From the NCBI GenBank assembly GCA_026710545.1, contig JAPOQU010000015.1:28696-92695 (forward strand): a stretch of 64,000 nt of DNA, given 5' to 3'. The notes below the pieces were generated by a model. The model was not told where the DNA came from and ran no database searches. It saw nothing but the letters and a program-made list of their open reading frames with translations. This DNA comes from Gammaproteobacteria bacterium. GTDB lineage: Bacteria > Pseudomonadota > Gammaproteobacteria > Eutrophobiales > Eutrophobiaceae. Numbering within the stretch: position 1 is the first letter of the stretch; the number at the start of each line of letters is the position of its first letter. Both the position numbers and the translations under genes were made by a program. Shown here in pieces: positions 39,821-61,304 of the stretch.

Positions 39821-42800
39821 ATGGCAGTCATGAAATACAATCCTGGCTTTCTGACACACGATGAGTTGATAGAGTCGTTTTGTGTACGGACACAGGAATT
39901 CGAATCCATTATTGAGATGCTGCGAGAGTGTGATAGTAATTCGAACCCGCACCGTCTTGTTATCGGTCCTCGAGGTTGTGGTAAAACCAGTCTTCTACTC
40001 CGAGTTGCAGTAGAGATTGTTCGCGACAAGGAACTATCCCTTTCCTTATTTCCAATTGTTTTCTCAGAGGAGAGTTATGGTGTTGCGAATACAGACGAAT
40101 TTTGGCTGGAAGCGTTATACCGCCTCGCAGAACAGACTACTCGCTTGGAAGGTGATGATGACCTGAATCTTACCTACAAGGAACTCCGAGAAATTAGAGA
40201 CGACCGTACACTCGGAAAACGTTGTTTGAGTACTCTACTGGATTTTTCGAATCGGTATGGCAAGCGACTTGTCTTGATTGTTGAGAATCTGAATTTGATG
40301 TTTAAGGATATTATGGATGCAGAAGCTGGTTGGAAACTGCGCCATACACTGCAAACGGAACCGCGTATTATTCTTCTGGCGAGCGCGACAAGTCGCTTCG
40401 ACGAAATAGATAAATCTGATCGTGCATTCTATGACCTTTTTGTATGTCAGACTTTGCAGCCCTTAGGAACTGTGGAATGTGCCATACTGTGGGAGAGTGT
40501 ATCAGGGCAACACCGGCTACCAGATGAAATGCGTGGATTACGTATTCTTACTGGGGGCAGCCCTAGACTTCTTTCTATCATCGCCAAGTTCCGGGCTGAT
40601 TTTTCGTTTCGCGATCTTATGACAGATCTACTTAAGCTGATCGATGACCTGACAGAATACTTCAAGAGCCATATAGAGGCGCTTCCACCTCAAGAACGAC
40701 GTGTTTACGTGACACTCGCTGATCTATGGGAACCCGCAACTGCACGAGAAGTTGCAATTCAAGCACGGCTCGGTACCAGCAAATGTAGCGCACTTCTCAA
40801 TCGATTGGTCGAGCGAGGCGCTGTCGAAGTTGTAGGTGGGGGTGCACGGCGAAAGCTCTATTACCTGGCAGAGCGCTTATACAACATATATTACCTGTTA
40901 CGTCGCTCCCACACACAAAAACCTTTGATTGAAGCCCTCATTCGTTTCATGGATGCATATTACTCGCCACCTGAACTCAGGGATGTTGGTATACGTATGG
41001 TGCGTGAGGCAAGCGAACTTGAGCCGGAGACGAAAACATTACATTGGACTGCATTTGCCCGGTTGATTGACCTCCCAGTGTTAGCGGGCGATCGCAAGGA
41101 GTTGCTGTCAAAAGTTCCCAAGGATCTTGCGGAAAATTTCGGACTTGAACTCTCGCCTTCTGTAGCGGAAAGCATAAAATCAACCCATCTGGAATCAGCC
41201 ACTTCTAAACCTGACAAAATCATTACCGAACATGATGAGGAACGGGACGAACAAACACCTGATGAGGCACCATCTAAAGTCGAACCTACAGCATCCAGTC
41301 AGATACGTAAGAAAAACGCGGCCACAGTTATTCGCTCAATATTGCATCGAATGGAAGCGAATAAAGCACCATTATCTCAAGCTGAAGCCGCGCGAGAGAT
41401 AGTCGATGAAGGGATCTCATTTCTCCAAAGTCATCAGCCAGAGGAAACAGTCGTAGCCTGTGATGAAGTCGAGCGACAGTTCAGTGAGATTACCACACCA
41501 TCCGTACTTGTTCAGGTAGCGCGTGCACTAAATTACAAAGGTATCGCGTTTGCTAGACTAGGTCGATCAGATGAGGAGCTAGCCAGTTATGATGAGGTTG
41601 TGCGCCGATTTAGCTCCAGTGACGAAGCTGACTTGCGATTGCAGGTAGCAATCGCTCTCGTTAACAAGGGTGCTACTCTCAGTAAGATAAATAGGAGAAC
41701 TGAAGCAATTGCAACCTGTAACGAGGTTTTTCGGCGTTTTGTCGATGACGCTACGACTACATTATGTGTCCAGGTAGCGAGAGCACTCATCAATAAGGGT
41801 GTCATGCTCAGCAAGTTGAACCGAAACGATGAAGAACTTGCTTGTTATGACAAGATTGTGTCCCATTATGGTGATACTGATGCACAAGAAGTCATTAATC
41901 AAGTATGTAAGGCTTTGATTTATAAGGGTAACACGCTAAATAGTTTGGATCGGTTGGATGAAGAGGTAGCGGTATACGATGAAGTTATTAACCGGTATAT
42001 CGATAGTGATGTCCCAATTATTCAAACACATGTTACGTGCGCTTTCATATACAAAGGTAGGGCTCTTGCTGAATTGAAGCGATATAACGAGGAACTCGTT
42101 GTTTATGAGGATGTCGTGCGCTTTTTTGGCGATAGCGAATTGCTCTCAGTTCGTGAACAAATAGCATTCGCCATGTTTCTGAAAGGAGTGACACTCGGCG
42201 AATTAGATCGTATAAATGATGCAATTGCCGCCTGCGACCAAATGGTTGAACGGTTTGGTGACGATGACTCGATGCAGATTGTTGAGCATGTCGCCAAAAC
42301 CATTTATCTCAAGGGGGGCATGCTCGGAAGCCTAGACAAGCCAGCTGAAGGACTTGCTGCTTATGATGAAATCATACACAGGTATGGCGATAGCAAATCA
42401 CCTGAAATCTTAGAGGTGATTGCACGTACTTTCATTAGTAAAGGAATCCTGTTTGGCGAGTTGAACCAGCCTGATGAGGAACTTGCGATTTATGAAGAGA
42501 TTGCGCGTCGATTCGGCGATAGCAATATCTCAACTCTCCTTGAGGTAGCTGCTGACGCGACCATCAGAAAAATATTCGCTCTTGGTAGATTGAATAGGCT
42601 TGAGGAAGCTGTAATCGCCTGTGATGATGCAGCGAAACAATTCAACGCGAGCGATGCACCACAAGTTGTTGAACAGGTTGCAACCATCTTCTTTCTTAAA
42701 GGCGAGACATTGAATCGGCTGAAACGGTCTTCGGAGGCAGTAGTCGCCTATGACGAGGTTGTACAGCGTTTTGGAGACAGCAAATCTGACAGAGTATGTG

Positions 42801-44161
42801 CACAAGTCGCGTTGGCCCTAAGTAAGAAAGGTGACGCATTAAATCAGTTGAACCTTCAGGATAAGGAGCTTGCCGCCTATGATGATGTTTTGCGACGTTT
42901 CGGTGACAGTGAAGATCCAGCGATCCTTGTGTCGGTCGCACGAACTCTTTATAACAAGAGTGGTACGCTCGACGAACTGAACCGTTTCGAGGAAGCCCTC
43001 ACCATTTGTGAGCAGATTGACCAACAATTTAGAGATAGTGATGTATCGGAGATACTAGATGTGGTTATACATGCTCACATGAGAAAGGGATGGATATTAC
43101 TCAATTTGGACAGACTTGAGGAAGCCATCGGTGTCTTTGATGAGATTGTGCAGAGGTTTGGTAGCAGTAACATGCCTGCAATACTTGAGGTGGTTGCACA
43201 AGCTCTTTTCAATAAGAGTGGTGTACTTGGCAATCTGAATCGGTTAGAAGAAGGAATTATAATTTGTGAGCAGATCGCTCACAAATTTGAGGATAGTGAC
43301 GTGCCGGGAGTTCTTGAGGTGGTAGCACAAGCTCACAAGAGGAAGGGAGACATATTAGTCGAACTAAATAGGCCAATAGAAGCTGTCGCTGTATTTGATG
43401 AGATTGTACGACGTTTCGGTGACACTAACATAACCGCTGTTCTAGAAGTAATTTCTCAAGCTCTCCTCTACAAGGCATCCTTGCTAATCCAGAGCAAACG
43501 CTATGAAGAGGCAATTACCACCTGCGAAGATATTGAGTGGCGTTTTAGTGATGATGAAATACAGGCGTTTCAGGTAGAAATTGCGAGGGCTCTCGTTTTG
43601 AAAGGTGCCGCGCTAGTAGGGCTTGGGCAAGAACAGAAAGCGAAGATGATTTGGAAAGAAGCTGTACGACATTTTGAATCAAGCGAAGATGCTGAGCTCT
43701 CTCTTATTGTCTCTATGGCCATGCTTCAAATAGCCGAACTAGCCAAAAAACAAGGGCAATTTGATGAAACAATCACGACCATAGGCCAACTTTTTGAGCG
43801 CGATATTAACCAAGCCTCACATCAACGTTGTGAAGGCCTCTTGATTCGGGCACACGCATTTGTAGCGCTTGGTGACGCCGTACAAGCAGAACGCGATATC
43901 GAAGCAGCTCTCGCACTTCTGCCAGATTTCGATGATCTCCTCGGAGCGGCGATTAACGTATTGATAGACTTCACAATCCTGCAAGGACCGCAACACGCGA
44001 AAAAGATTATCCAAGCATCACCTTCAGTCGAACAGCTTGTACCGTTTACGATAGCAATCGATAAGGAGCTTGGGAACGAACCCCGAGTGGCCCGGGAAAT
44101 TGAGGAAGTCGCTGAAGACATACGAAGAGATTTAGAAAATCGACAAAAGCGCAATAACTAA
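39821..44161 (+). CDS. Large STAND-like protein: P-loop ATPase, winged-helix-like linker, long TPR array
   Basis: RLVIGPRGCGKTSLLLRVAVEI Walker A, LVLIVENLNLMF Walker B-like, YVTLADLWEPATAREVAIQARLGTSKCSALLNRLVERGAVE winged-helix-like segment, then about 18-19 units like LNRLEEAIxVYDEIVxRFGDSxxPxxLEVVAxALxxKGxxL. Confidence 0.88.
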   Translation: MAVMKYNPGFLTHDELIESFCVRTQEFESIIEMLRECDSNSNPHRLVIGPRGCGKTSLLLRVAVEIVRDKELSLSLFPIVFSEESYGVANTDEFWLEALYRLAEQTTRLEGDDDLNLTYKELREIRDDRTLGKRCLSTLLDFSNRYGKRLVLIVENLNLMFKDIMDAEAGWKLRHTLQTEPRIILLASATSRFDEIDKSDRAFYDLFVCQTLQPLGTVECAILWESVSGQHRLPDEMRGLRILTGGSPRLLSIIAKFRADFSFRDLMTDLLKLIDDLTEYFKSHIEALPPQERRVYVTLADLWEPATAREVAIQARLGTSKCSALLNRLVERGAVEVVGGGARRKLYYLAERLYNIYYLLRRSHTQKPLIEALIRFMDAYYSPPELRDVGIRMVREASELEPETKTLHWTAFARLIDLPVLAGDRKELLSKVPKDLAENFGLELSPSVAESIKSTHLESATSKPDKIITEHDEERDEQTPDEAPSKVEPTASSQIRKKNAATVIRSILHRMEANKAPLSQAEAAREIVDEGISFLQSHQPEETVVACDEVERQFSEITTPSVLVQVARALNYKGIAFARLGRSDEELASYDEVVRRFSSSDEADLRLQVAIALVNKGATLSKINRRTEAIATCNEVFRRFVDDATTTLCVQVARALINKGVMLSKLNRNDEELACYDKIVSHYGDTDAQEVINQVCKALIYKGNTLNSLDRLDEEVAVYDEVINRYIDSDVPIIQTHVTCAFIYKGRALAELKRYNEELVVYEDVVRFFGDSELLSVREQIAFAMFLKGVTLGELDRINDAIAACDQMVERFGDDDSMQIVEHVAKTIYLKGGMLGSLDKPAEGLAAYDEIIHRYGDSKSPEILEVIARTFISKGILFGELNQPDEELAIYEEIARRFGDSNISTLLEVAADATIRKIFALGRLNRLEEAVIACDDAAKQFNASDAPQVVEQVATIFFLKGETLNRLKRSSEAVVAYDEVVQRFGDSKSDRVCAQVALALSKKGDALNQLNLQDKELAAYDDVLRRFGDSEDPAILVSVARTLYNKSGTLDELNRFEEALTICEQIDQQFRDSDVSEILDVVIHAHMRKGWILLNLDRLEEAIGVFDEIVQRFGSSNMPAILEVVAQALFNKSGVLGNLNRLEEGIIICEQIAHKFEDSDVPGVLEVVAQAHKRKGDILVELNRPIEAVAVFDEIVRRFGDTNITAVLEVISQALLYKASLLIQSKRYEEAITTCEDIEWRFSDDEIQAFQVEIARALVLKGAALVGLGQEQKAKMIWKEAVRHFESSEDAELSLIVSMAMLQIAELAKKQGQFDETITTIGQLFERDINQASHQRCEGLLIRAHAFVALGDAVQAERDIEAALALLPDFDDLLGAAINVLIDFTILQGPQHAKKIIQASPSVEQLVPFTIAIDKELGNEPRVAREIEEVAEDIRRDLENRQKRNN

Positions 44162-44194: not shown

Positions 44195-44372
44195 CATTCA
44201 TACTGCTGAGTAAGCAGCTTCCTGACACATTGCCGATAGCATCGGGGAACCCCTTGAGCCCGTCTACGCAGGCAATAAGGATGTCCTTCACCCCGCGGTT
44301 TTGCAACTCGGTGAGGATAGCCAGCCAGAATTTTGCCCCCTCATTCTCAGCCAGCCACAGACCTGGTAACTC
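44195..44372 (-). pseudogene. IS256 (mutator)-family transposase internal fragment
   Basis: Minus frame KELPGLWLAENEGAKFWLAILTELQNRGVKDILIACVDGLKGFPDAIGNV. Confidence 0.85.
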
Positions 44373-45073
44373 CTTGTGAAACGGACTAACCCATCCCAGG
44401 ATGTTCTGTAAACAGGACGCTCTCGCGGATCAATCAAACCAACTTCTTCCAGCCGCCAATTCCCGCGTCCGTAGTTACAGGGGGCGCAAGTAATTACGAT
44501 GTTATCCGGTACGGATTCTCCTCCCCAGCAATGCGGTAGGATATGGTCAAACTGGAGCCAGAGGCACTGGAGCGCCGCATGTTGGTCGAGGTTCTTTTGG
44601 CTGCGCCAGTATGCAGAATCTGGATATGCTGTCGTTATTGCTTTACGGATTTCGTAAGGAATTACCGGGATTCCACAAAAGCGGCAGTTGTAACCATCAC
44701 GAGCAATGATCTCAAGCCGTTGCTCTTTTATTGGCATTCGGTCATAGACTTTTGGTTCAGGTTTACCTATACCTTGAATTTCCCTCCAGCGATGGTAACG
44801 CCATTGTTCCGGATTTTCCCGTTTGCCACCCCATAGTGATTCAGTCCAAGCTCGAATTTTGGGCATATCCGCCTCATGGAAAAGTTGTTCGGCAGTTTTC
44901 CGATCTTGACGGAGATGTGCGTCTACTGCGAGGTCCAGAAGTTCCGCTGCATGGAATATCTCATTTATTGGTTCTCGCATACAGCGACGAGGCGCCAGAA
45001 ACTCTTCCAATAAAGCTTTTTCGCACGAACCATCAGTGTAAGCCAAACTATGCAACATCGTCTTGTACCCCAA
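44288..45073 (-). CDS. HNH endonuclease family protein, C-terminus displaced by IS256 fragment
   Basis: RDGYNCRFCGIPVIPYEIRK...ALQCLWLQFDHILPHCWGGESVPDNIVITCAPCNYGRGNW; last residues are out-of-frame IS256 sequence. Confidence 0.8.
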   Translation of the reverse strand: MGYKTMLHSLAYTDGSCEKALLEEFLAPRRCMREPINEIFHAAELLDLAVDAHLRQDRKTAEQLFHEADMPKIRAWTESLWGGKRENPEQWRYHRWREIQGIGKPEPKVYDRMPIKEQRLEIIARDGYNCRFCGIPVIPYEIRKAITTAYPDSAYWRSQKNLDQHAALQCLWLQFDHILPHCWGGESVPDNIVITCAPCNYGRGNWRLEEVGLIDPRERPVYRTSWDGLVRFTRSYQVCGWLRMRGQNSGWLSSPSCKTAG

Positions 45074-45293
45074 TATTATTTGTCTTTCACCTCGGATAGT
45101 AACCTGTCAATAAGTCCGGATCTAATACCTGGCTTGCGACGTTCGGCAAGAGTCTTATCGAAAAAGTCAAAAGTGAATTTTGAAAGCTATCCTGAACCTG
45201 ATTAGTCATACATTTCGGTTATACTAAACCATCAACCGATAACTTGGCTCTGCCCTTACAAAATGAAATTTCTTCTTTGCATGAGGTTTAGGC

Positions 45294-46220
45294 ATGAAAT
45301 CTGACGTTGCCGACACCCTGATGCGCGTCGCAGCCTTTGGGCACGTGCTAAAGCTGAGCGAAACACAAAATAATATTTCAGCAGAGGAGTTAAGGCGCGG
45401 GTTTACTTTTGAAGGTGAGCGCATCCCATTGGTCAACCCGCAAAGAGGTATTTTCAAGCCGAGGCAAATGCAATATCTTCTTTCGATCAGGACGGTGTTT
45501 CCTCGTCCTGGCAAGCCTGTCTGGTACGATGATCAACGACAGGTACACCGCCAGATATTCGAAAGCCGCGAAGCCGTCGATTATGCCTTCATGGGGAAAA
45601 ATCCAGATGCCGCCGACAATCGTTGGCTCCGTGAAGCCTTCGAAAACCGGATCCCGGTGATCTATTTCCTGGGCGTCGCACCAGGGCTTTATCAGGCGAT
45701 AATACCCACATATATTTCTGGTTGGGATGCAAACGCGCTGAAGGCACAAATCGTTTTCGGAATTCAGAATCAAGCTGACTATGTTGCACCAGAAAGTGTC
45801 AACGAACGCTGTTATGCGCTTCAGACAGTCAAACAACGCCTCCATCAAGCGTCTTTTCGTGAGGCTGTTATTACAGCTTATAACGGACGTTGTGCCCTGT
45901 CTGGGTTACCTGAGCAGAGATTGCTCGATGCGGCACACATTATTTCCGACAAGGATGAACGGTTAGGCCAACCAGTAGTGCCAAACGGATTGCCGCTTTC
46001 AAAAATCCATCATGCGGCATTTGATGCGCACCTTATCGGTATTGATCCTGATTATCGATTGCATGTATCGGGGCGGCTGCTTGACCTGCACGAGGGACCG
46101 ATGCTTGAAGCGCTGAAACAACTCGAGGGGGGAGTACTCCACCTTCCAGCCCGGACAAAGGACTACCCGGACCGTGACCGATTAGCACTGCGTTACGAAC
46201 AATTTAAGGTAGCTGCATAA
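45294..46220 (+). CDS. Putative HNH restriction endonuclease (COG3440-like)
   Basis: C-terminal YNGRCALSGLPEQRLLDAAHIISDKDERLGQPVVPNGLPLSKIHHAAFDAHLIGI. Confidence 0.82.
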   Translation: MKSDVADTLMRVAAFGHVLKLSETQNNISAEELRRGFTFEGERIPLVNPQRGIFKPRQMQYLLSIRTVFPRPGKPVWYDDQRQVHRQIFESREAVDYAFMGKNPDAADNRWLREAFENRIPVIYFLGVAPGLYQAIIPTYISGWDANALKAQIVFGIQNQADYVAPESVNERCYALQTVKQRLHQASFREAVITAYNGRCALSGLPEQRLLDAAHIISDKDERLGQPVVPNGLPLSKIHHAAFDAHLIGIDPDYRLHVSGRLLDLHEGPMLEALKQLEGGVLHLPARTKDYPDRDRLALRYEQFKVAA

Positions 46221-46386
46221 TATATATTTAATATCGGTCTTCACCTGAGCAAAATAGGCTACCATTAAGATAAATTAAATTTCATTAAATTGAACTGTAA
46301 GTAGTTAGGTAGGCCCGACCCTATCCTGTTATCCTATATCCTCTGCAACACATTAACCCACAGGACTCTCGTAGGATTGTACGAAA

Positions 46387-47046
46387 TTGAAGCCTGAAAT
46401 TGTCAATGGACTCTTCGCCCTTGGGGGTGCTGCTCTTGGAGCCTTGTTAACGGGTGCTTTCTCGTGGTTTCAAAATAAGCAAACTCGTTCTCGTTCAGAG
46501 TTAAGTATATTCACTAGTCATGCGGCCCGACTTATTGAAGTTGATTCCTCCATATCGGAAATAGTTGAGATTCGAGTACAAGGAGAAATCGTCCCAAGTG
46601 TCTATACGTTAGACACAAAATTACTTAACACTGGAACAGAACCTCTATACGATGGAAAAGTTTACATTAGTTTAGTTGACGGCACGACAGTCTTGACAGT
46701 CGATATAGCTGACGTCCCTGATGGCGCACTAGATGCGATTAAAGTCGAACGAGATGAAAATAAGACTGCTTTTCACGTATATTTCGACTATATGAATCCT
46801 GATGAAGAGTTCCTACTTCGTGCGCTCTTAACCTCACGACCGTCCAAGGTAGTACCTACTTTTCGTCAGCCCGGCGTTAGTACAAGGGTGCGGACCGACT
46901 ATGACCCAGCATTGCCAGGGGCCCTAGCTAGGGTTCTGTTTGAAGCAATTCGGAATAACTTGCTTCTTCACTTCTACTTAAAGTTCTGGTTTCAACCTTA
47001 TCGACGTTATCTTGAACAACTAGAGCGAGATAAACATTCGACTTAG
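46387..47046 (+). CDS. Hypothetical protein with N-terminal TM segment
   Basis: GLFALGGAALGALLTGAFSWFQNKQ TM; TTG or downstream start. Confidence 0.6.
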   Translation: MKPEIVNGLFALGGAALGALLTGAFSWFQNKQTRSRSELSIFTSHAARLIEVDSSISEIVEIRVQGEIVPSVYTLDTKLLNTGTEPLYDGKVYISLVDGTTVLTVDIADVPDGALDAIKVERDENKTAFHVYFDYMNPDEEFLLRALLTSRPSKVVPTFRQPGVSTRVRTDYDPALPGALARVLFEAIRNNLLLHFYLKFWFQPYRRYLEQLERDKHST

Positions 47047-47168
47047 GCGACCAGTAGTGGTGGAAACACGTTTTTGGTGACCTTGCTACAAAAAGTATGT
47101 GAGATCAGCAATAATTTGTAGAAGTTCAGATTTGCTCTGACAATTACCGGCTTGATGGTCCGGGACTG

Positions 47169-48059
47169 TCAGTTAAAGTCTTGATTAGCCGATTTGACGT
47201 TCTCGGGACTTGTTGTTTTGTTATGGTTTGTTAAACCCCATGGGTTACCCATCTCTTTGTACTCTACGTCTACGGCCGTGACTTGATACGGTGCGGCGCC
47301 GATGATTTCTGCATCCTTGATGTCAAAAAGAGCAATATTAAAACCTTCTTGCCCGAATTGACTTCTGTAGATCAATGCATCGTAGCCGTTGTTGCAAAAG
47401 AGTTCGGCAAGTATTTGTGTCGGCACATAATCTGCGAAGTCATCTGAAACAGAAGTTGGACGGGAAAATGCATTGTCAACATCGATCCACACAACTTTTT
47501 CTTTCAATTCCGGATCAGGTGCGTCCTCACCGAGAAGATTTGCGATTGTCAAATGTTCCAGCACTGACTCTCCATGCCCGACGGACAGATCAATTGCTTT
47601 TAACTCGCGAGATATCTTAAATTGGGCAACCGAAACCTCCGAGCCTATCCATGGCCTGACTTCGGAAATGGCTGTTTGTAGAGAAGTTGCCAGATATAGA
47701 ACAGGGATACCCTTAGAATTGGCGCGGCCTTCCATTGCACGACCTCTCTGCGGTGTCATTCGATCTGCTTTGTGGGCTAATATCACTAATTGATCATCGT
47801 CTTCTTTATGGTTGACCCCGTGTTGTGCGCGGTATAAAAGAGTGCCTTCAGGTAATATCCTGTCCCGGTCCCTCACAGTTGCCAGAAGAGTATCCAGGAA
47901 GGCTCTCACTTCAGGGTCCCAGATATAGCGGCGCTTGCGAAGAACACTGGTTGCAAAATTTGTGTAGCTTCGCCAACTGGAGAACTCAGGGCGTTTCGGA
48001 TCATCCATTTTCAAGGGGCTTATCTCGACTGAGCTGGGAATCACAACTTTCTCTAACAT
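47169..48059 (-). CDS. RES-domain protein (putative NAD+-targeting toxin family), no adjacent Xre partner
   Basis: GTLLYRAQHG...RANSKGIPVLYLATSLQTAISEVRPWIGSEVSVAQFKI...YVPTQILAELFCNNGYDALIYRSQFGQEGFNIALFD. Confidence 0.8.
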   Translation of the reverse strand: MLEKVVIPSSVEISPLKMDDPKRPEFSSWRSYTNFATSVLRKRRYIWDPEVRAFLDTLLATVRDRDRILPEGTLLYRAQHGVNHKEDDDQLVILAHKADRMTPQRGRAMEGRANSKGIPVLYLATSLQTAISEVRPWIGSEVSVAQFKISRELKAIDLSVGHGESVLEHLTIANLLGEDAPDPELKEKVVWIDVDNAFSRPTSVSDDFADYVPTQILAELFCNNGYDALIYRSQFGQEGFNIALFDIKDAEIIGAAPYQVTAVDVEYKEMGNPWGLTNHNKTTSPENVKSANQDFN

Positions 48060-49010: not shown

Positions 49011-49745
49011 TCACTTCTTTGCAGAGTTGTAGCGAACTAATTTATCCCAATCAATTTTTCCGTCTTCTTTGCAATATGTGTCGGCGAATTCTTTCGTGAA
49101 TTTATTGAGCACCTGTGAGTATGCTTCTATAAAGACATCATTTTTTTCTTTGGCTTTGTGTCCGAGTGGTTCAACGATTTCCGTATACAAGTCGCTTTCT
49201 CCGGAGATGAACTCCCAGAAACGTTGACCGCAATATTTGAAATAGTCTCCTTTATCCGGTCTGTTGTCTCTGCCATAGCAACAACCGTTTACCGCAACTA
49301 CGTTCAAGTTTGAATTACTGGTTCTCAGTGTTCTTTTAGCCGTTTTGAAATCTGCCGCCATTTTCTTTATTTGTGGGTTATTGCCCCAATTAGGCCCTGA
49401 CTTGACTGCTACGATATATCTCGTGTTGTTACTGTCAAATTCAAGGTCAATACCCGTGATGCCTGATTTATAGCCGCCATAGACCTTGTTATTGATGAAA
49501 ATGGCAAGCCCTTCCAGCCAATCACCAAAAATAGTTTCCTCACTCGATGAAATATGCGCGTCCGTCAGCCCTCTTACAATCTTTTCAGAAGTCAACACGT
49601 ATTTTGCTTTGAAAAGATAGGGATTTTTTCGCCTGAGAACTTTCGATAGTTTCAGTTTGTCGAGGCTTTGAATGCGTTTTTGATGAAAGGTGCCAATATT
49701 TTCTTCAACGTAGTTTAATACGTCTTCAGGGTCCAGCTTTTTCAT
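49011..49745 (-). CDS. Type II restriction endonuclease (PD-(D/E)xK-like)
   Basis: GIDLEFDSNNTRYIVAVKSGPNWGNNPQIKKMAADFKTAKRTL; overlaps the upstream methyltransferase gene. Confidence 0.78.
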   Translation of the reverse strand: MKKLDPEDVLNYVEENIGTFHQKRIQSLDKLKLSKVLRRKNPYLFKAKYVLTSEKIVRGLTDAHISSSEETIFGDWLEGLAIFINNKVYGGYKSGITGIDLEFDSNNTRYIVAVKSGPNWGNNPQIKKMAADFKTAKRTLRTSNSNLNVVAVNGCCYGRDNRPDKGDYFKYCGQRFWEFISGESDLYTEIVEPLGHKAKEKNDVFIEAYSQVLNKFTKEFADTYCKEDGKIDWDKLVRYNSAKK

Positions 49746-50622
49746 ATTCTGCCTTTGGTTCCAATAGATATAATTCGGCGGGTCTTAATTGTTGTTTAAC
49801 CATTTCGCAGTATTCAGGAACCACGTCAATACCGATTGAGTTCCGCTTCATTCGGTTGGCAACAATCAACGTTGTCCCCGAGCCCATAAACGGGTCAAGA
49901 ACTGTCCCTTGTTCTTTGGTAAACAATTTGATAAACCATTCCGGCAGGGCTTCGGGAAACGTGGCGCTATGGCTTTTGTTATTGCATTCGGTAGCCAAGT
50001 GCAAAACATTTGTGGGATACGTCTTATCACGGTTAAGCCAATTTGAAACATTTTTGCCGAAGCCACTGCCCACTCTCGAATTATCACGGGTTTTATCGGT
50101 TTCAGAAAGGTTCCTTAATCTAGTATTTGCCCACTCGCCTACGGGAACCATCACTTCTTTCTGGTACATGTTGAATTTGCGGTTTTTATTGAACTGAAGA
50201 AGTCTTTCCCAAGCATTACGAAAACGGTTAGGCCACTTCCCAGGATAACAATTTTTCTTGTGCCAGATAAATTCTTCCGTCCATAACCAGCCCTGTTTGC
50301 GCATTTCCAAAATCAATTCGATTACATAAGTGCTGCGTTCGCCTTTAACCGCTTTTTCCTTGATGTTTAATATAAATGTTCCGGTAGGATTGAGTACTCG
50401 TAAAAGTTGTTCGGAGATGGGCAAAAACCACTCCACGTAATCATCAGGATGAATGCCTCCATAAGTGTTTCTGCGCTGGTCTGCGTAGGGTGGAGAGGTC
50501 ACTACCAAGTCAACGGAATTCTCCGGGAGTAGTTTTAACTGCTCTTTGCTATCGCCCAGGTATATGTCCGTAGTTATTTCCATTTCAAATTCCTTTTCGA
50601 TTGATACAAGTCTGTTAATCAT
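49726..50622 (-). CDS. DNA methyltransferase (N4/N6 amino class)
   Basis: TSPPYADQRRNTYGGIHPDDYVEWFLP and DPFMGSGTTLIVANRMKRNSIGID motifs. Confidence 0.92.
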   Translation of the reverse strand: MINRLVSIEKEFEMEITTDIYLGDSKEQLKLLPENSVDLVVTSPPYADQRRNTYGGIHPDDYVEWFLPISEQLLRVLNPTGTFILNIKEKAVKGERSTYVIELILEMRKQGWLWTEEFIWHKKNCYPGKWPNRFRNAWERLLQFNKNRKFNMYQKEVMVPVGEWANTRLRNLSETDKTRDNSRVGSGFGKNVSNWLNRDKTYPTNVLHLATECNNKSHSATFPEALPEWFIKLFTKEQGTVLDPFMGSGTTLIVANRMKRNSIGIDVVPEYCEMVKQQLRPAELYLLEPKAEYEKAGP

Positions 50623-50980: not shown

Positions 50981-51391
50981 TCAGTAAAGTTCTAGGCTGT
51001 CTTCCCAAGGTGCCCCCCCCTTTTTTTTCCAAGCCTTGATATTTTCTTCCGTTATCCAGTAATGCGTACCACGATAATATTGTTGATATCTATTCTTAAA
51101 TCCAATAAGGGCTTTTTCATATTGCACCATAACAAGAACCGCATCGCTATTCTGAGGGAGTTCTTCGTCATTCAATAGATCAAGATATTTGCCCTCCGGC
51201 TCTGTCTTTAAGATGCTTAGAATGTCTTCTAAAACACGGTTTAAAAGCATCACTTTACTTTTGCTCAATGTTGCATCTGGTTTCTTTTTCGAAAGCTCGC
51301 GCATCTCTGACATAAGTCCGGCAAAAACATCACAAAATGCATGGTACGCTGCTAAGGTACTCTCGGTTGTAATGTGCTCGAAATCAGTCAT
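50981..51391 (-). CDS. Small protein B of a nuclease operon; paralog of 51394..51780
   Basis: ELSKKKPDATLSKSKVMLLNRVLEDILSILKTE...ELPQNSDAVLVMVQYEKALIGFKNRY. Confidence 0.75.
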   Translation of the reverse strand: MTDFEHITTESTLAAYHAFCDVFAGLMSEMRELSKKKPDATLSKSKVMLLNRVLEDILSILKTEPEGKYLDLLNDEELPQNSDAVLVMVQYEKALIGFKNRYQQYYRGTHYWITEENIKAWKKKGGAPWEDSLELY

Positions 51392-51393
51392 CT

Positions 51394-51780
51394 TCAGTTT
51401 CTCATATTCGGGTCTGCATGAACTCCGCTCAATTCCCCATTCAGGATATAGACCAATTTGCGACCCTGGTCTCTTGCAATGTTATCCTCCCTAAAGCGTT
51501 TTATTTCTTTCCTGTATTGTGAGATAACAAATACCACATCGCTCGTTGAGGGCACATCATCTTTATTAAATTGTTCAAACTCATCAAATGGTTTATAGCC
51601 ATCACCAAGTATTGTATTAGCTAACTGCAGAACAGAGTTGATCAACTTCAATTTGAAAGTATTAACAGCATCATTGGGGGACTTTTTTGAAAGTAATGAT
51701 ATTTCTATGTAGATTGTATCGAGTTGACCTATCGTTTTTTCAAGTATTTCTACATCTTCTTGAGTTTTCATTAGTTCCAC
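51394..51780 (-). CDS. Small protein A of a nuclease operon; paralog of 50981..51391
   Basis: LLSKKSPNDAVNTFKLKLINSVLQLANTILGDG...DVPSTSDVVFVISQYRKEIKRFRE. Confidence 0.75.
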   Translation of the reverse strand: MELMKTQEDVEILEKTIGQLDTIYIEISLLSKKSPNDAVNTFKLKLINSVLQLANTILGDGYKPFDEFEQFNKDDVPSTSDVVFVISQYRKEIKRFREDNIARDQGRKLVYILNGELSGVHADPNMRN

Positions 51781-53148
51781 CTATGGGCAAGACCGACGAA
51801 ACTCCACGTATTTCTTTTTCAATATATCGAGAGGAGCTCTTTGTTTGCTTTCAAAAACTTCAACCATCTGCTCAACGTCCACATCAGTGATAGTTACAAT
51901 GGCCTTACGCTGTCCAGACCATAGGTCGATGACCCTTTTGCGTTCTGCATTATGAAGTTCTGTTCTCGTTATCAGAACGCCAAATTCTCCAAGTTCATCA
52001 TGTAGATAACGGTTCAATTGATCAATATGAGTCCGATTAATCTTCTGGGCATTCTTCATTTCCATAGTGATTTGACGAGCGCCATAGTCATCCATAATCT
52101 CACGTAAAAATTCATGAGTGCGATTGTTGTAGAAAATAAGGTCGCGGATACTTACACCACTGTCTGTTCTTGCCTGAACTTGTGCAAAGTCTAACTGAGG
52201 GTAAAATAGTGAAGCAAAAAGTTCGGCAATGTTGTCTTCGTATTTCTTATCAGCACCCTCATCTTTTCCTTGAGGCAATTTCTTTATCATCGTCAGTTTT
52301 CGGCGTGCCGAGACAACTGGTATTTGCGTAAATAACGGATCGTTTTTACAATCCTCAAAAGTTAGTTCTCTCTCCTTGATGAAGCCGTCAATCAAGTCAT
52401 AATTATCGCGATTATAGGTTAATACCTTAGCATGCGTCAGTTCTTCAGCGGTATGAGCAATATCGTCTTGAGGGCAGTAATCTTTAAAATAAGTTTCGTA
52501 GTTAATCCATGGAACATGCCGAAGCCAACGTTTGGGCACCAGAAGGATTGGAGTACCATGGTCTGGATGTATGGGCAGAGTGGTTTTTAATGATTCAAAT
52601 TCGTTTTTTCCGTGATGAAACACATTCTCAACCATGACATCATGCATAGTAATTCCGAGTTCAGTACATTCTTGATATGTATAGTCAATTAGAAAACTTT
52701 TTAAGAAAGAGCACGCAATATCACTTATCCGATCTTTGCTTATTCCTTGGACCAGGAGTTGTATCTCTTCAAAATGGCGAAATCCGTGTTCATGATAAAA
52801 TGATATTTGGTCGAAGAGGAGGAGGATCTTTTCTGCAAGCTTCTTGCCAATACGTTTTCCTATTCTGTTAGAAGAGTTTCCTAAGCCAACTTCATCGCAC
52901 TCTGACGCTGTGATAAGTTGGTCTATAGCTTTCTTGTACTTTCCGGCCTTTAACAAGACACCTAAATTATTAAATGATGATATCAGAACACCATGCAGTG
53001 CTTTGTCCTGCAAGGAAGGGGATTTCCAAAGTAAAAAAGGATCAACGTATAGCGGGATATCTTCGTTAAGAAATGGAATTGCAAAGTCGAGTTCATTCTG
53101 AGGAACATAAACAGAATGGTACTCTGTGAAACGTGGTCGAATTAACAA
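51781..53148 (-). CDS. Putative PD-(D/E)xK-type nuclease, uncharacterised
   Basis: C-terminal KKYEDNIAELFASLFYPQLDFAQVQARTDSGVSIRDLIFYNN...ARQITMEMKNAQKINRTHIDQLNRYLHDELGEFGVLITRTE (D...ExK pattern). Confidence 0.7.
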   Translation of the reverse strand: MLIRPRFTEYHSVYVPQNELDFAIPFLNEDIPLYVDPFLLWKSPSLQDKALHGVLISSFNNLGVLLKAGKYKKAIDQLITASECDEVGLGNSSNRIGKRIGKKLAEKILLLFDQISFYHEHGFRHFEEIQLLVQGISKDRISDIACSFLKSFLIDYTYQECTELGITMHDVMVENVFHHGKNEFESLKTTLPIHPDHGTPILLVPKRWLRHVPWINYETYFKDYCPQDDIAHTAEELTHAKVLTYNRDNYDLIDGFIKERELTFEDCKNDPLFTQIPVVSARRKLTMIKKLPQGKDEGADKKYEDNIAELFASLFYPQLDFAQVQARTDSGVSIRDLIFYNNRTHEFLREIMDDYGARQITMEMKNAQKINRTHIDQLNRYLHDELGEFGVLITRTELHNAERKRVIDLWSGQRKAIVTITDVDVEQMVEVFESKQRAPLDILKKKYVEFRRSCP

Positions 53149-53494
53149 TGTCGAGGCCTCAGTTGTATTCTATAATGGTCGCTGTCTCATCTCTATGGTT
53201 ACGTGATGTTGCCATGCTTAATGTCATCATGAAAGCAGTTTAAAGGATAAGGTGAACGACCATGTGATAGAATAAATTCGCCTTCATAATTATCTTCATA
53301 TACTGGGTTATGAAAACTAATCCAGCTATAATATCTCGGCGGAGAGGGTTTGAGATAATATAGCCTAACCATTCATCATTTCGTGTGCCTGATCTATCCC
53401 CAATAATCCGGCCCACGTTGCAGGGGGCATGTCACTTTTAATATTGATCTTGAACTTTCTCTCAGGCTAGTCACACAGCAGTTTAGCGTGAGGC

Positions 53495-55246
53495 TCAAAC
53501 CGAATTCACTAATTCAGAAATACGGGCCTGTAGTCGCTTCTGTCGTGCTTCGTAAAAATCTAAAAACCCGGCGAGGTCGCGCGGAATCTCCCCAAGCAAA
53601 TATAGATCGCGGTAGTGTCTGCGCTTTTCTTCGGTGGGAAATTGTGCTTCAATCCAATCTGCTGGTAGTGTCGCTTGCTTTTCCAGGTTGATAGCGCCAT
53701 CTAGTAACTGGAGATTTCCGATGCGATTGGCACAACCAATTAGTATATCAATCTGATTCTCATCTATTCCAGCTTCTTGCAAGCGCTTTGGAGTGAAACG
53801 GCTTTTTGGGAATATATGGTCGATATGAAAATGATGATGCTGAAAGTCGATGAACGGTGACAGCATTGCCAATAGAGCAAAAATACGGCGATCATTTAAA
53901 CCCATGTCAGCCAGGTCTTCAACCTCTTCTTCCGAGAACTCTAAGCTCTTCCCGCGCTGAGCCATTAGCCGCCGCATTTCAGCCGCTGGAAAATGCTCGT
54001 TGCGTGCATCTCGGAGGACTTCACGAAGAGCAGTAAGCAATGTATCCAGGCCGCTGCCCCAAATACCAGACGCCTTTAAGACAGATCGAATTAACCAGCC
54101 ACGTATCGCATTGCGATCGTCCTCATATCTGCTATGGTGATCGAAGTCTCGTGGGGTACCGATCTGATAAAGGTAATAAGCAATTGGCAATAATGCGCTG
54201 GCTGCACGAATACTGTTGGCGTCGAATCCAAAACCTGTGACCAGTTGAGATGTCTCAACCAGCGCATCGCGGATCCTTTGCCAGTTTTTTTCCAGAATTG
54301 CCATGTTGGATCGGGTAAAATTACGGACTTGGAAACCTACACTGGCGATGTCGGTCAGCATTAAACCGGCTTTCAGTACAAAATCTTTCGTAAGATCAAG
54401 ACCTGGTCCAATGCGATTCAAATCATCAACCAGTTGGTGAACTTCCTTACGGGCGTCCAAATTGCTGCTCCACTGTGAAGTTGCAATGCTTAGTAAAAGG
54501 TCGGAGTACGATAGAGTTGTACCACCACTGTTGCGGCGAATAAATATACTTAGAACGTGTTCAATGTTCGGATTATTTTCCTCATAATACGCTACTGTAG
54601 GTTCCATATGGATCATGCGATACAGACAGTCAAGAATTCGGTGGGCATGAATCTGATTTTGTTTTTCAAGGTCCTTATCCAATAACCATTCGTGCATGTC
54701 CGGACCTGGTTCCATATCAAGGATATCCGACACTCTGAACCATAGACGCTCGCCTAACTGTCCGATCTTGTCTATATCGACGAAATCAAAACTGTAGAGG
54801 TTCCCCTCTTCATCTCGTTCATCCTTAGCTAGCAAGTCTAATGCCAGAACCCGAAGCGGGAATGCATCAGGACTATTCCACCACTTATAGGGCCGCTTAA
54901 CGGACATTGACCCACGTAATCCAATATTGAACGCAGTCATTCTTTGCTGGCCATCCAGTACCGCTATTATTTCCTGGTTGGGCAATGGGCCGAGGTCAGG
55001 GCAATGTGGGTTATCGCGTTGATGGTATTCCCGAACAAATCCGTAGTAGCGATAATCCGCCGAACGTTCCGGCTGTATGCGCCAGAACAAGAATTCACCA
55101 AAAGGATACCCCTGCATCACACTATCGAACAGCTTACAAATCTGCTCTGGACTCCACACGAATTCCCGCTGTATGGCCGGCAGCACGTATTTATTTGAAG
55201 CAATATTGTCCAAGACCTTCTTGATTGTTCCACCTTGCTGGTACAT
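53495..55246 (-). CDS. DUF262 domain protein with C-terminal HNH (GmrSD-like)
   Basis: NKYVLPAIQREFVWSPEQICKLFDSVMQGYPFGEFLFW, AVLDGQQRMTA, HFHIDHIFPKSRF...CANRIGNLQLLDGAINLEK. Confidence 0.9.
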   Translation of the reverse strand: MYQQGGTIKKVLDNIASNKYVLPAIQREFVWSPEQICKLFDSVMQGYPFGEFLFWRIQPERSADYRYYGFVREYHQRDNPHCPDLGPLPNQEIIAVLDGQQRMTAFNIGLRGSMSVKRPYKWWNSPDAFPLRVLALDLLAKDERDEEGNLYSFDFVDIDKIGQLGERLWFRVSDILDMEPGPDMHEWLLDKDLEKQNQIHAHRILDCLYRMIHMEPTVAYYEENNPNIEHVLSIFIRRNSGGTTLSYSDLLLSIATSQWSSNLDARKEVHQLVDDLNRIGPGLDLTKDFVLKAGLMLTDIASVGFQVRNFTRSNMAILEKNWQRIRDALVETSQLVTGFGFDANSIRAASALLPIAYYLYQIGTPRDFDHHSRYEDDRNAIRGWLIRSVLKASGIWGSGLDTLLTALREVLRDARNEHFPAAEMRRLMAQRGKSLEFSEEEVEDLADMGLNDRRIFALLAMLSPFIDFQHHHFHIDHIFPKSRFTPKRLQEAGIDENQIDILIGCANRIGNLQLLDGAINLEKQATLPADWIEAQFPTEEKRRHYRDLYLLGEIPRDLAGFLDFYEARQKRLQARISELVNSV

Positions 55247-55676: not shown

Positions 55677-57263
55677 TCAGCTTTTTCTTCTTTCACCCAG
55701 AATCATCGAACGATTCGCATCGTATGAATAGATGTAATCCCCGAGCGGATGTCGCTCATCCCTATCAGACTTCTGCGAATCCCATCCACAAAGTAGAAGT
55801 TCCGAAGCGCAGTAGATGAACTCCAAGGTTTCCGTAAGGAAGATTACGACATCAATGTCCGCGAAATTGACGTCGCCTGCGTCTTTGTCGCCAGGCCCAT
55901 GTGTGTAGTAGTTCCGGCACTTAACGGCCAGCCGGACCACGTCCTTCAGCTCCTGCAGATTGTTAGCGCCGTAATGAACCAGAACAACATCCGCCCGGTG
56001 TTTCACGATGTCGCGAAGTCGCCTATTCGCCCGAATGTCGCCCAGTGCGGTCAATACGTCATCACGTAGCGCACCAGTGGCCAACAACTTCCCGATCTTC
56101 TTTATTGCATCCTTGAGAACTTGCCGAACATCGTCTGGCAATGGTTGGCCCTCGGGTTTGTCTTCAACGGGCAAGAGATCGAAAGTGTTGGCTGCCGCTA
56201 CGATTCTGTCTTCGATGAGGCGATCCCATGTTCCCTGCATGCTTCCAAAGAACCGCGTGTTGGCACTCTTTCGTCTAGCATTGCCATTCCTCTCCAGCCA
56301 TTTCGTCATCACCTCCACGAAGTGGTCGGGATGCCGTGACGCGTCGATCAAAGAACCGTTTTGCCTCGTGCCTTCAGGCACTTCCTTCCATTCACATGGG
56401 TAAAACACTTCCAGACCATCCGCGTCCTCCCTGAATCCGTGTTCTTCCAGTCGAGAGGTAAAGACCAGTACATCCTTCCACCCTGGGGCGTATCCCATCA
56501 TCCACGCGAAGAACTGGTGTATCTCGCGCACTTTCACCCACGCGCCCTCCAGTGTGGTCGGATCGTCGTCGAAGTTAACCGTAATGCGCTGCGTGTCCTC
56601 CATGCTGCGTCCAAAGAAGTCAACCTGCATCCTCCGCCCGATATGCACGGTCCCAAGGACGGTCTTGAATCTCGGCAGGAAGTCCCAATCCCCCGTGAAA
56701 TAGGACACCATCGCCTTGCCCTTTACCAATTCACCTTTCATGTACTTGGGCCTCTTTTTTTCGATGACGTCCAGAATCTCTTCATCCGGATCATGCAGGT
56801 AGCCGAACCTATTGAACTTGTCGTGCACGAATACGCACGAATCCGCTCCCTCCAGCGTGAATTGGATGCCCCGTATGCACTTCTCGTCAGTTGAAACGTG
56901 CCGCTTCCCGAAGAGCGCGTATCGGAAGGAGACGTTGCCATGGCGTATTGCGAAATCATTCCACGTCGTCGTGCTCAACATCCCGCCTCGGACGCAGTCC
57001 AGAAGTGAGACCTTTCCGGCCTCTGAAACCCCGTGCAGCGAATCGCCATGGGCAATACGGAAGAACTCATCGTCTGCGATGCTAACGACGTTGCTGTCAA
57101 ACAGGTCACACCTTTTCAGTTTAAGTTGCGCGCCGACCCGCCGTCCTTTTTCGCTATCGAAAAGCACCCCGATTGGACGATCATATTTGTCGTCGCGAAA
57201 CATCAGTTCTTTATCCACCACTAGCTGGTGTCCATCTCCACAAGCAAATTCGCGTTCGCACAC
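55677..57263 (-). CDS. ApeA-like HEPN domain anti-phage protein
   Basis: 528 aa; C-terminal CRNYYTHG fits the HEPN RNase R(x4)H motif; N-terminal region resembles ApeA NTD. Confidence 0.68.
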   Translation of the reverse strand: MCEREFACGDGHQLVVDKELMFRDDKYDRPIGVLFDSEKGRRVGAQLKLKRCDLFDSNVVSIADDEFFRIAHGDSLHGVSEAGKVSLLDCVRGGMLSTTTWNDFAIRHGNVSFRYALFGKRHVSTDEKCIRGIQFTLEGADSCVFVHDKFNRFGYLHDPDEEILDVIEKKRPKYMKGELVKGKAMVSYFTGDWDFLPRFKTVLGTVHIGRRMQVDFFGRSMEDTQRITVNFDDDPTTLEGAWVKVREIHQFFAWMMGYAPGWKDVLVFTSRLEEHGFREDADGLEVFYPCEWKEVPEGTRQNGSLIDASRHPDHFVEVMTKWLERNGNARRKSANTRFFGSMQGTWDRLIEDRIVAAANTFDLLPVEDKPEGQPLPDDVRQVLKDAIKKIGKLLATGALRDDVLTALGDIRANRRLRDIVKHRADVVLVHYGANNLQELKDVVRLAVKCRNYYTHGPGDKDAGDVNFADIDVVIFLTETLEFIYCASELLLCGWDSQKSDRDERHPLGDYIYSYDANRSMILGERRKS

Positions 57264-57417
57264 AAAGGTCTGTTACAGCCTCTTCGAGATCAGAGTAAAA
57301 TTACTCCGCAATACATCGACACCACCTGCGAGTATTATTCTCATCTTTAGTTTTTGATACATATCTTTCGTCCTGGCCAATCTGGGGGCTCAATTCTAAA
57401 TTAGATATTAACCTGTC

Positions 57418-59106
57418 TTAGTCAACGCGAATGCCAAACTTTTTTACGCGCAGTTTATTGAGTGTAGATTCATTTCCGATTTTTTTGAGCGCTGAAATTG
57501 CTTTCTTGGATATTTCTGTATCTTGCTCGGAAGCACCACCTAAGTTACCAAATCGCAGACATGTGTTTATGTATTCCGAAAGGTGGCTTCCCTCAGTGGA
57601 CTTGAAGAAATTGTAGTAGTCCTCTACCGTTGCAGTTGAAAGAATTTGTACATCTTCTTTTGACCAACCATTCTTGTCTGCTATCTTACTTACCACCTCA
57701 TTTAAACTCCTTGTCTTAATATCGGATATCGCTTCAAATGTTTCCTTGAATCGATTAATAATAGCCTCATCAGTAATATCTCCCGAGAATGGATATTTTT
57801 GCAAATCGAACAACCCGGTTTCACTTTTTCGCTGCTCAATGTAATACTCTATGGCCTCATCCGCTAGGTCATTTCTTTTTAGTTCACGGAGCAGGCCAAC
57901 CGTTCCTTGCAAGTTAAGTGGCGATACATGCTGTGCCCATTTCTTAAGTGCTTCAAAGATTTGTTCGACAACCTCCTCTTCGTTATTCCTGAAATTGTTA
58001 TGATAAATATTCCACGCTTCGCTAAACGAGTTCTGGCCCTTCGTTGCGATAATTTCATCATTCTTTTTCTCGGCCGCCACGTAGAATTCATCTTCGATGA
58101 CGTAACCTTTATTTATCAAATGAGCGATTGCCAAATCTAATTCATCGGTTTGAGTATAACCATAATCTTGCAAAGCAGCGTTCCATTGTTTCTGAGTCTC
58201 CGTATATTTGTCATTGTCCGTTAGGCCCATCATCCATAAAGTTATATTTGTTACATAGTCATAGCTAGGAGATACATCGTCAGGGCTATAAAAACACCAC
58301 GTAAAAAGACAGAGTGTATGCAGGGATTGATCCATTATTTCAGGTTCGAATCTTTGGACATAAGGTAATAACCGTCCAGCTAATCCCTCAATTTTTGTGA
58401 GTGTTCTTATATTGTCAATTCCGAGTTTGTTACAGTTCTGTATCAGGTCCTTATGAAAATCACGGCTTCCCGAAAAAGCAATAGAAGCAGACTCACTGGG
58501 ACTAGGCTTGTACTCGAATTCAATATCAATCGCTTTTTCTCGGTACTTATCGAATTCATCCCGGTCCTCTCCATCAAGTACACCCTCGTTGTGAATCAGA
58601 ACCACTTTACATTCCTTTTCCTCTTTCAAATATGATACGAGTCCTAACACATCAGTCATTGAGAGATTTTTGCCCTTTCTTTCAAGGTCGTCTATGCATA
58701 TCAGGCTTTTTCTGATAGAGAGAAACGCAACTGATTCCAGGGAATCGGAAAAATTAGTGACATAAGGAAGCTGAAAAAAGCTACGAAAGGACTTACGCCC
58801 CATAGATTCAGATAACTGAAGGACATTCGCTCCGAATGATTTAATCGTTACTTCTTCACCAATCATTTTTGTCGAAATTGCTTGCTGAAATATCTGAAAT
58901 TTAAGGTCTTGAAGTGAATCAATTCCGAACAAGGATACGTAGGAATATCTATTGTTCTTTAATTTATTTTTCGAGTGTGCCAGTACGATATATTCCTTCC
59001 AGGCATGCGTTTTTCCTACGCCCCAAGCTCCCCTGATGGACATTGTTCCAGGGGAAGGAGAACTTAGAAAATCAAATACTTGCTGTTTTATCGTTCGTAT
59101 TGACAA
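57418..59106 (-). CDS. KAP-like P-loop NTPase
   Basis: GTMSIRGAWGVGKTHAWKEYI (Walker A), SLICIDDLERKG (Walker B, KAP-like). Confidence 0.75.
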   Translation of the reverse strand: MSIRTIKQQVFDFLSSPSPGTMSIRGAWGVGKTHAWKEYIVLAHSKNKLKNNRYSYVSLFGIDSLQDLKFQIFQQAISTKMIGEEVTIKSFGANVLQLSESMGRKSFRSFFQLPYVTNFSDSLESVAFLSIRKSLICIDDLERKGKNLSMTDVLGLVSYLKEEKECKVVLIHNEGVLDGEDRDEFDKYREKAIDIEFEYKPSPSESASIAFSGSRDFHKDLIQNCNKLGIDNIRTLTKIEGLAGRLLPYVQRFEPEIMDQSLHTLCLFTWCFYSPDDVSPSYDYVTNITLWMMGLTDNDKYTETQKQWNAALQDYGYTQTDELDLAIAHLINKGYVIEDEFYVAAEKKNDEIIATKGQNSFSEAWNIYHNNFRNNEEEVVEQIFEALKKWAQHVSPLNLQGTVGLLRELKRNDLADEAIEYYIEQRKSETGLFDLQKYPFSGDITDEAIINRFKETFEAISDIKTRSLNEVVSKIADKNGWSKEDVQILSTATVEDYYNFFKSTEGSHLSEYINTCLRFGNLGGASEQDTEISKKAISALKKIGNESTLNKLRVKKFGIRVD

Positions 59107-59498
59107 TGACTGTCTCCTGTTAGAAGTCTGAACCGCCCCGGGAATCCCGGAACCCCGTTAGTTGTATATGGACTCCTCCATTCATGCAACAATACATGTA
59201 TTAGAATAAAGACCTGTATGCGGCACCCATACGTAGCGGAGTCTGGCACGAAGACTGCTTAACCAGTACACCGCTGGGCGCTGATTATGAAATCAAATTG
59301 CTGAGTTCAGCACTCTGGCCGCCTGCGTTTCACACAGCGGGACGCAAGCTGGGGACTATTGTGCTGTGGCACAACTACCCGGATGAAAATCAAAGAACCG
59401 TCATTTCAAGCGGCTGCAACGGGCGTTCGACAAAAAGTGCCCGAAACTCAAACGTTGCAGCGTCTCTCGGTCGGAACCGCAGGTTACTAGCAAAACAT

Positions 59499-61304
59499 CT
59501 ACTGCTTTAGTTCTTGAAACAGAGCAGCAAACCTTTTTTTCGTATCTGTAGAAATTGCTGATACCACTTGTTGTTTCACTTTCTCGGTTCTAACCAGAGT
59601 AATCAGCTTCCTCATGAGTGCGAGGTACTGCTTCTTGTCGACTGTTTTGACCTTTTCCTCGAATGCAAGCTCGTAAAGTTTAACCAATTCAGTTTTATCA
59701 AACACACGTTCGATCTCTGGACGCTGGGCGGCATGCATTACAAATTGACTGGCAGGCAACGAAAACTCTTGCATGTAACGTTTCTTCGCTTTTTTGCCCG
59801 CCGAATCCGAGTCTAGTAGTATTTTGAAGCTAGCTGACCAGCCCAAGCTTAAAGAAATCAGCGTGGACAGGTTGGATGCGCTGCCTCCCGGGTATATCAC
59901 ATGCGTATTCTCTTCCCCCAGCACTGCCTGCATAACCCCTAGCGTGGCGGAGTCTGAAGGCCCTTCCGTAATGATGGCCCGGTCCCACGGAATATCCAAA
60001 TTGTTGGGTACAATCTGCAAGCAATCATGGAGAGGCTGATAATACGAGACGTTAGGGGCCTTCCCTTTGATATATTCGCCCCATTTGACGCACGAAATGC
60101 AACCATCTTTTCGACTTACAACGTGCGTGTTTTTCACATTGCTTTCTGATATCAGGTACCGACTGTGTGTGGTGTATATTACTGTGGTGTCTTCAACCAG
60201 TTTTTCGAAGTCGGCCACCATGTTGCTTTGCGCCGTTGAGTGCAGATTTGAAGCCGGCTCATCAATCAGGTAAATGGGTTTTCCGGAGCCTTCGCGCAGT
60301 TTTTTTCTCCGAAATTCCGTTTTCATCAAAAACGCGAGATACCAAACCGCCCCCTTGCTGCGTTCATGTACCGAATACGTAGTGCCGTCCTTCTCGCTGA
60401 TCTTGATCTCAAAATATTTCTTGTTTTCCTGGAACACGATTTCGGTATGGTCGATCTCTTTGACTCCCGACAGATCGCGCCATTTCTCGGTGAAGGTCTC
60501 CTGCAGCGTGTTATTTACTTGCTTCAAAACAGTGCGCGCATCATCGGCTCGGCGATTATTATTTGAGTAATAGCCCAGATATTTCTTGACGCTATAATTT
60601 GAATTAGTGTTGAAAAATATTCCATCAATGATTTCGTACCATGCCGGATTAAAACCGTCACTTCTCCGGTTGGTGAAAATTTTCTCCGGAATGGCGTCTT
60701 GAAAATCTTCGAAATACAAGATGTAGGGACTGCGCCGCACTATTTCCTGCGCCATTACTGATTCTAGTTTCTGGTCCTCAATGGGGAGATGATCTTCAAA
60801 TTTGTAATAGCTTGCGCCGGCGTTTCCGACGTTAAAAGGAATAACTCTTGTAATGCGAACAGAACATCGTTCGTTTGCACGGGCAATGAAGGCATCAACC
60901 GTGGATCGAATCTGTCGATTGTACCTCGCCGACCTCAATGCCTTTTGAAAAAACTTAAAGTCGAGAGGTTCGGAGAAACTTATCTCAGCCGTGATGGTCG
61001 TAGGGCTGCTGCAGTCGATATCCTGCTTGTTCCTGATGGACGTAAAAAAGGCCTTCAACTGATCTTGAGCAGGATCGTTGTTGAAGTCAAAACATTCTAT
61101 GGCCTTTAATATGCTGGTCTTGCCGGATTCGTTCAAGCCCAGCAATAGCACCAAATCGTTTTTCGAGAAATTCAGGGAGACGTGACTTAATCCCCTGAAG
61201 CCCTTTATTTCAATGCTGTTGTAGGAGAAATAGTTTTCGGTTTCTTTCTCTCCGGAAAATATCGGCGCCCAGAAACGATACCATTCTTTAAACAAGTCCG
61301 ACAT
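59499..61304 (-). CDS. OLD-family ATP-dependent endonuclease (AAA + TOPRIM)
   Basis: IKGFRGLSHVSLNFSKNDLVLLLGLNESGKTSILKAI; YLIDEPASNLH; TTHSRYLI; TOPRIM IITEGPSDSATLG...ILLDSDSAGKKAKKRY. Confidence 0.9.
   Translation of the reverse strand: MSDLFKEWYRFWAPIFSGEKETENYFSYNSIEIKGFRGLSHVSLNFSKNDLVLLLGLNESGKTSILKAIECFDFNNDPAQDQLKAFFTSIRNKQDIDCSSPTTITAEISFSEPLDFKFFQKALRSARYNRQIRSTVDAFIARANERCSVRITRVIPFNVGNAGASYYKFEDHLPIEDQKLESVMAQEIVRRSPYILYFEDFQDAIPEKIFTNRRSDGFNPAWYEIIDGIFFNTNSNYSVKKYLGYYSNNNRRADDARTVLKQVNNTLQETFTEKWRDLSGVKEIDHTEIVFQENKKYFEIKISEKDGTTYSVHERSKGAVWYLAFLMKTEFRRKKLREGSGKPIYLIDEPASNLHSTAQSNMVADFEKLVEDTTVIYTTHSRYLISESNVKNTHVVSRKDGCISCVKWGEYIKGKAPNVSYYQPLHDCLQIVPNNLDIPWDRAIITEGPSDSATLGVMQAVLGEENTHVIYPGGSASNLSTLISLSLGWSASFKILLDSDSAGKKAKKRYMQEFSLPASQFVMHAAQRPEIERVFDKTELVKLYELAFEEKVKTVDKKQYLALMRKLITLVRTEKVKQQVVSAISTDTKKRFAALFQELKQ

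Follow-up and report, generated by a model that had tools for sequence, protein, structure and literature searches.

The closest described relative of the locus analysed here is PDC-M36, a candidate defence system in PADLOC-DB 2.0 that is made up of PDC-M36A and PDC-M36B proteins. PDCs are putative systems that were proposed from guilt-by-embedding and mostly lack experimental validation (PMC10855318; the latter point is also made in PMC12988326). Our literature search, in which preprints and supplements were outside the scope, found no published test of PDC-M36, no paper that names it in its text, and no similar described three-gene system.

The locus is a single run of three minus-strand ORFs (53148-50981; 455, ~125 and 136 aa; table 1) in the 64,000-nucleotide stretch of DNA that was analysed, which we call the window. 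The first protein, A, matches PDLC04597 (PDC-M36A) over residues 2-455 with an E value of 2.7e-219; B1, encoded directly downstream of A on the same strand, matches PDLC04599, the first PDC-M36B model (E 9.2e-44); and B2, again on the same strand, matches PDLC04600, the second PDC-M36B model (E 1.8e-38). By these profile matches the trio is an intact copy of the catalogued candidate defence system PDC-M36. A preliminary description of this DNA had put the operon forward as a candidate undescribed one in which it did not recognise a named defence system; the label undescribed must be given up, since all three proteins match PDC-M36, itself only a candidate. What is new here concerns the catalogued system's co-inheritance across phyla, the ancestry of B1 and B2, the reduced variants and the stand-alone relatives. 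No Pfam or NCBIfam family matched the trio proteins above cut-off, PHROGs matches covered only parts of A and led to phage families of unknown function, A had no match among phage records, and a search of E. coli genomes with the Proteus locus found no copy there.

Table 1. Features of the PDC-M36 locus (window coordinates)
Feature	Coordinates	Strand	Remarks
A (PDC-M36A)	51781..53148	-	455 aa, TTG start
Nuclease domain of A	51781..52263	-	E304, D336, E363-x-K365, Q377-xxx-Y381; ~residues 296-434
N-terminal domain of A	52399..53148	-	~residues 1-250
B1, first-position class	51394..51771	-	125 aa from ATG (GTG alternative: 51394-51780, 128 aa)
B2, second-position class, B1 paralog	50981..51391	-	136 aa, ATG start
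Intergenic stretch upstream of A	53149..53494		presumed promoter site

Gene starts and upstream region

The three ORFs and the 0-2 bp spacing given for them in the preliminary description were found as stated (0 bp between A and B1 if the GTG start of B1 is used, and 2 bp between B1 and B2), except that B1 probably begins later. Its start is more likely the ATG at 51771, which leaves a 9-bp gap to A, than the GTG at 51780, because AGGTGG precedes the ATG and most orthologs begin there (with MK.. or similar). The TTG start of A has GAGG upstream of it, and orthologs of A begin with a nearly identical MLIRPR. The promoter of the trio presumably lies in the intergenic stretch upstream of A, where promoter-like matches were no commoner than in shuffled sequence; an Rfam search of the locus gave nothing real, and no Rfam family in that stretch.

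Protein A

Protein A consists of an N-terminal domain of ~250 aa, linker helices and a C-terminal PD-(D/E)xK nuclease domain. The D...ExK nuclease-like segment that had been noticed at the end of the 455-aa protein is well borne out: E304, D336, E363, K365, Q377 and Y381 are identical in 84/84 aligned sequences. In the AlphaFold2 model (mean pLDDT 88.5) the core elements H296-315, E319-326, E335-341, E359-364, H372-381 and E389-393 follow one another as alpha-beta-beta-beta-alpha-beta, the order of the PD-(D/E)xK fold, with E304 placed in the first helix of the predicted nuclease domain and a Q377xxxY381 motif present. Foldseek comparison of this region with the PDB returned RPB5 (which carries a fold related to PD-(D/E)xK), FokI, EcoT38I, the BspD6I nickase, LlaBIII and MspJI, all of them weak though consistent matches with a best E of 5e-3. 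The Pfam PDDEXK_3 match to A is weak as well (E 0.003, below cut-off), and a sequence search of solved structures with A and B gave chance matches only. A is a predicted member of the PD-(D/E)xK superfamily, as both the D and ExK residues and the core fold order are present in it.

The N-terminal ~250 residues of A have no known fold and gave no convincing structural match. Eight residues of this domain, D30, D36, E83, H125, E127, D139, R140 and D143, are invariant in 83-84 of the 84 sequences, and D30, E83, D139 and D143 remain so once distant relatives are added to the alignment; this acidic domain might provide a second catalytic site or a site that binds a ligand. Domains of the same type are also found in stand-alone proteins of other Pseudomonadota genomes (for example L009, L010, L012 and L013-L016), beside which the B gene is absent and which PADLOC matches only through its PDC-M36A models. 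In L013-L016 the PDC-M36A model matches no part of the nuclease, and a D..ExK-like segment is still visible in the sequence. The N-terminal domain may thus be a sensor or regulatory module that A shares with these proteins. On a Falsihalocynthiibacter plasmid, a remnant of A (its N-terminal 116 aa, L004:4995-5126) adjoins a PaeR7I-type restriction-modification pair.

Proteins B1 and B2

The two small proteins align in BLAST at 33% over 73 aa with an E of 5.7e-6 (the best of 2000 shuffled B2 sequences reached 0.19), and a profile-profile comparison of the first and second B classes gave a probability of 99.8%. By both measures B1 and B2 are true paralogs beyond chance, in agreement with the earlier reading of the pair. 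The motifs E..LsKK.P....N..K....N..L and P..SD......QY are common to both classes. In its model (mean pLDDT 94.9), B1 folds into a three-helix bundle with short beta strands after it. Foldseek of B against the PDB found nothing below E 0.4 and so no significant structural relative, for which reason the role of B is read here from genetics alone. A match between B2 and the YhaV toxin (E 0.084) and HEPN-like Foldseek matches of B (E 4-5) were judged to be due to chance.

A tree of 158 B proteins is divided by one long branch (support 99, length 1.68) into first-position and second-position copies, with two exceptions among 144 (in L075 and L101 both copies belong to the first class). It follows from this split that B1 and B2 arose in one ancient duplication, after which the order A-B1-B2 was stable. 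The small genes had been called tandem-duplicated; the duplication stands, but this single well-supported branch does not allow a recent copy. Because the duplication is ancient and has been retained over many phyla, B1 and B2 are taken to be different subunits.

Conservation and spread of the trio

Of 141 stretches matched in a search across 85,462 species genomes, the best 80 were taken (best-segment identities 52-71%). These best 80 of the 141 come from Pseudomonadota, Bacteroidota, Thermodesulfobacteriota, Acidobacteriota, Cyanobacteriota, Bacillota, Planctomycetota, Verrucomicrobiota, Chloroflexota, Chlorobiota, Campylobacterota, Poribacteria, a WOR-3 bin and a Thorarchaeota bin. Adding one locus from a genome search and two plasmid loci, and dropping one duplicate, gave 82 loci, or 83 with the window. 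The co-conservation of the small proteins with the nuclease in other genomes is clear from this set, as 72 of the 83 loci carry exactly two B genes on the strand of A, immediately after it. Of the other 11, three run up to a contig edge or end close to it (L030, L061, L077). The remaining eight are as follows: L092 and L094 have three B ORFs each, two of those in L094 resembling fragments; three Acidobacteriota loci (L080, L103, L107) have B1 only and two Bacteroidota loci (L100, L104) B2 only; and in L037, an Afipia bin, an IS630-like element (L037:9764-11319) splits B2 while A and B1 are intact. In L048, an Asaia strain outside these 11, A and B2 are intact and B1 is frameshifted, possibly by sequencing error. 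Every locus with enough sequence keeps at least one B, and loss of all B was never seen there.

The converse also holds in the genomes sampled. Of 399 sampled genomes from the phylum, two have the B profile (one of them the window's own genome), both with a full-length A, and 18 others had distant or partial A relatives only and no B; in a sample of 369 genomes of the class the profile was again found in two (including the window's own), both times beside A, with one of the loci cut by the contig start. Thus in the samples of 399 and 369 genomes B is restricted to genomes with an adjacent A of the close family. No family was common to more than three of 125 flanking proteins that were tallied, and therefore no fourth component is apparent.

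Between A, B1 and B2 the pairwise distances show correlations of 0.67-0.72 (maximum of 0.24 in 999 permutations), which indicates that the three were inherited together, and this joint inheritance extends over more than ten phyla. The A tree requires 22 changes of phylum label against a minimum of 13, and Pseudanabaena, for example, clusters with Proteus and Halopseudomonas; part of this mixing may be binning error, although isolates are included. In the window the trio has a GC content of 0.40-0.41, the lowest within a region of 0.40-0.50 at ~32-62 kb (the left part of the window is mostly 0.53-0.63), against ~0.58-0.60 for the backbone; six other species of the genus, some with incomplete assemblies, lack it. 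The trio looks to have been acquired horizontally together with the defence island described below.

Genomic neighbours

In this window the trio sits inside a defence island. About 345 bp upstream is a GmrSD-type gene (53495-55246; DUF262 plus GmrSD_C; PADLOC candidate HEC-05, E 4e-209), and genes for an ApeA-like HEPN protein, a KAP NTPase related to PDC-S49 and an OLD-like ATPase-Toprim protein lie at 55677-61304. Downstream, at 49011-50622, the gene for an EcoO109I-type restriction enzyme (Pfam RE_EcoO109I, E 4e-93) overlaps that of an N6/N4 DNA methyltransferase, and the two apparently form a complete type II restriction-modification pair. At 44288-48059 there are two HNH endonuclease genes and a gene for a RES-domain protein (a possible toxin) with no recognised antitoxin. 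The genes at 38540-44161 encode a 415-aa AAA ATPase and, after it, an AAA ATPase of 1446 aa that has many TPR repeats; this pair resembles a STAND-type sensor and has only faint PADLOC matches.

The immediate neighbours of the relatives vary. Three of 20 sampled flanking genes are defence genes at E<=1e-15, so the association with islands is moderate outside this genome. Among ten neighbours that were picked, and so give no unbiased estimate, are HsdM, a type III methyltransferase, a ThsB-like TIR protein and a GmrSD-like protein.

Possible function

We see about an even chance that A is a DNA nuclease that is triggered by phage and kept under the control of a B1-B2 unit. A would be a metal-dependent nuclease acting on DNA, with its N-terminal domain reading or receiving an infection signal, and B1 and B2 would bind A as two non-equivalent subunits, in the simplest form as a B1-B2 heterodimer that sets the timing of nuclease firing; upon phage entry A would cut DNA, and resting cells would be spared. 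The DNA substrate, the formation of a complex, the phage trigger and the regulatory role of B are what we infer in this scheme, and B may be a sensor, inhibitor or specificity module, as was proposed in the preliminary description. The loci that have just B1 or just B2 fit regulators that are able to form a like-like pair.

A rather unlikely alternative is that A is a restriction-like enzyme which senses a feature of incoming DNA (e.g. modification or replication intermediates), with B1-B2 as a recognition or positioning subunit that does not hold A off. FokI, EcoT38I, the BspD6I nickase and MspJI among the PDB matches of the nuclease region are in keeping with such an enzyme, as are the type I or III restriction genes that adjoin some relatives, but the trio contains no methyltransferase (the nearby one overlaps and pairs with the EcoO109I-type enzyme), the flanking-gene tally showed no methyltransferase neighbour common to the relatives, restriction neighbours differ from locus to locus, and B is without a known DNA-binding fold.

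We consider it unlikely that the trio is a toxin-antitoxin-like unit, in which A would be toxic by default and be freed from its antitoxins B1 and B2 by phage takeover. Small proteins encoded in one operon with a nuclease, at least one of which is always retained where the sequence suffices, speak for such a unit; on the other hand, A is intact beside the split B2 of L037 and the (possibly misread) frameshifted B1 of L048, there are subclades with B1 only or B2 only, and no B is recognisable for the stand-alone relatives of A. These same observations make the plain toxin-antitoxin reading less likely and suggest that neither B alone is an obligatory antitoxin, although one of the two may suffice as such. 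That A is instead a nuclease for DNA repair or mobile-element maintenance, with no part in immunity, is quite improbable: two plasmid loci have UmuC-type polymerase genes just upstream (a DUF4113 protein in L002, UmuD/UmuC in L003) and most sampled flanking genes are non-defence, but the patchy distribution, the cross-phylum transfer and the defence-island position in the window all speak against it.

To return to the phage-triggered nuclease under B1-B2 control, it is conceivable, though somewhat doubtful, that PDC-M36 represents a new mechanistic class of immunity, in which a nuclease with a novel acidic N-terminal domain is gated by an ancient three-helix B1/B2 hetero-pair without known fold relative, and of which the stand-alone relatives are simpler sensor-nuclease versions.

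Comparison with known systems

The trio does not differ in any respect that we found from PDC-M36 as catalogued, to which no function is assigned there: all three proteins match, A over its full length, and each B matches a different PDC-M36B model best. To this candidate the present analysis adds predicted catalytic residues and two non-equivalent small subunits that are kept in most lineages, and lineages with one B class are now available for comparison; if it is protective, PDC-M36 would be a widespread three-part immune system whose small subunits have no known fold relative. With PD-(D/E)xK nucleases (PDDEXK_3, FokI, EcoT38I, Cas4-like) A has in common the D...ExK and QxxxY motifs and the fold order, but these nucleases have neither the N-terminal domain of A nor B partners, and none reaches the Pfam cut-off on A. 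The N-terminal domain is a module common to a wider set of nuclease-like proteins: the stand-alone proteins differ from A in being longer (~475-545 aa) and in having no adjacent B gene, and they have in common with it D30, P32, P37, E83, G90, D139 and D143 as well as the C-terminal nuclease-like segment.
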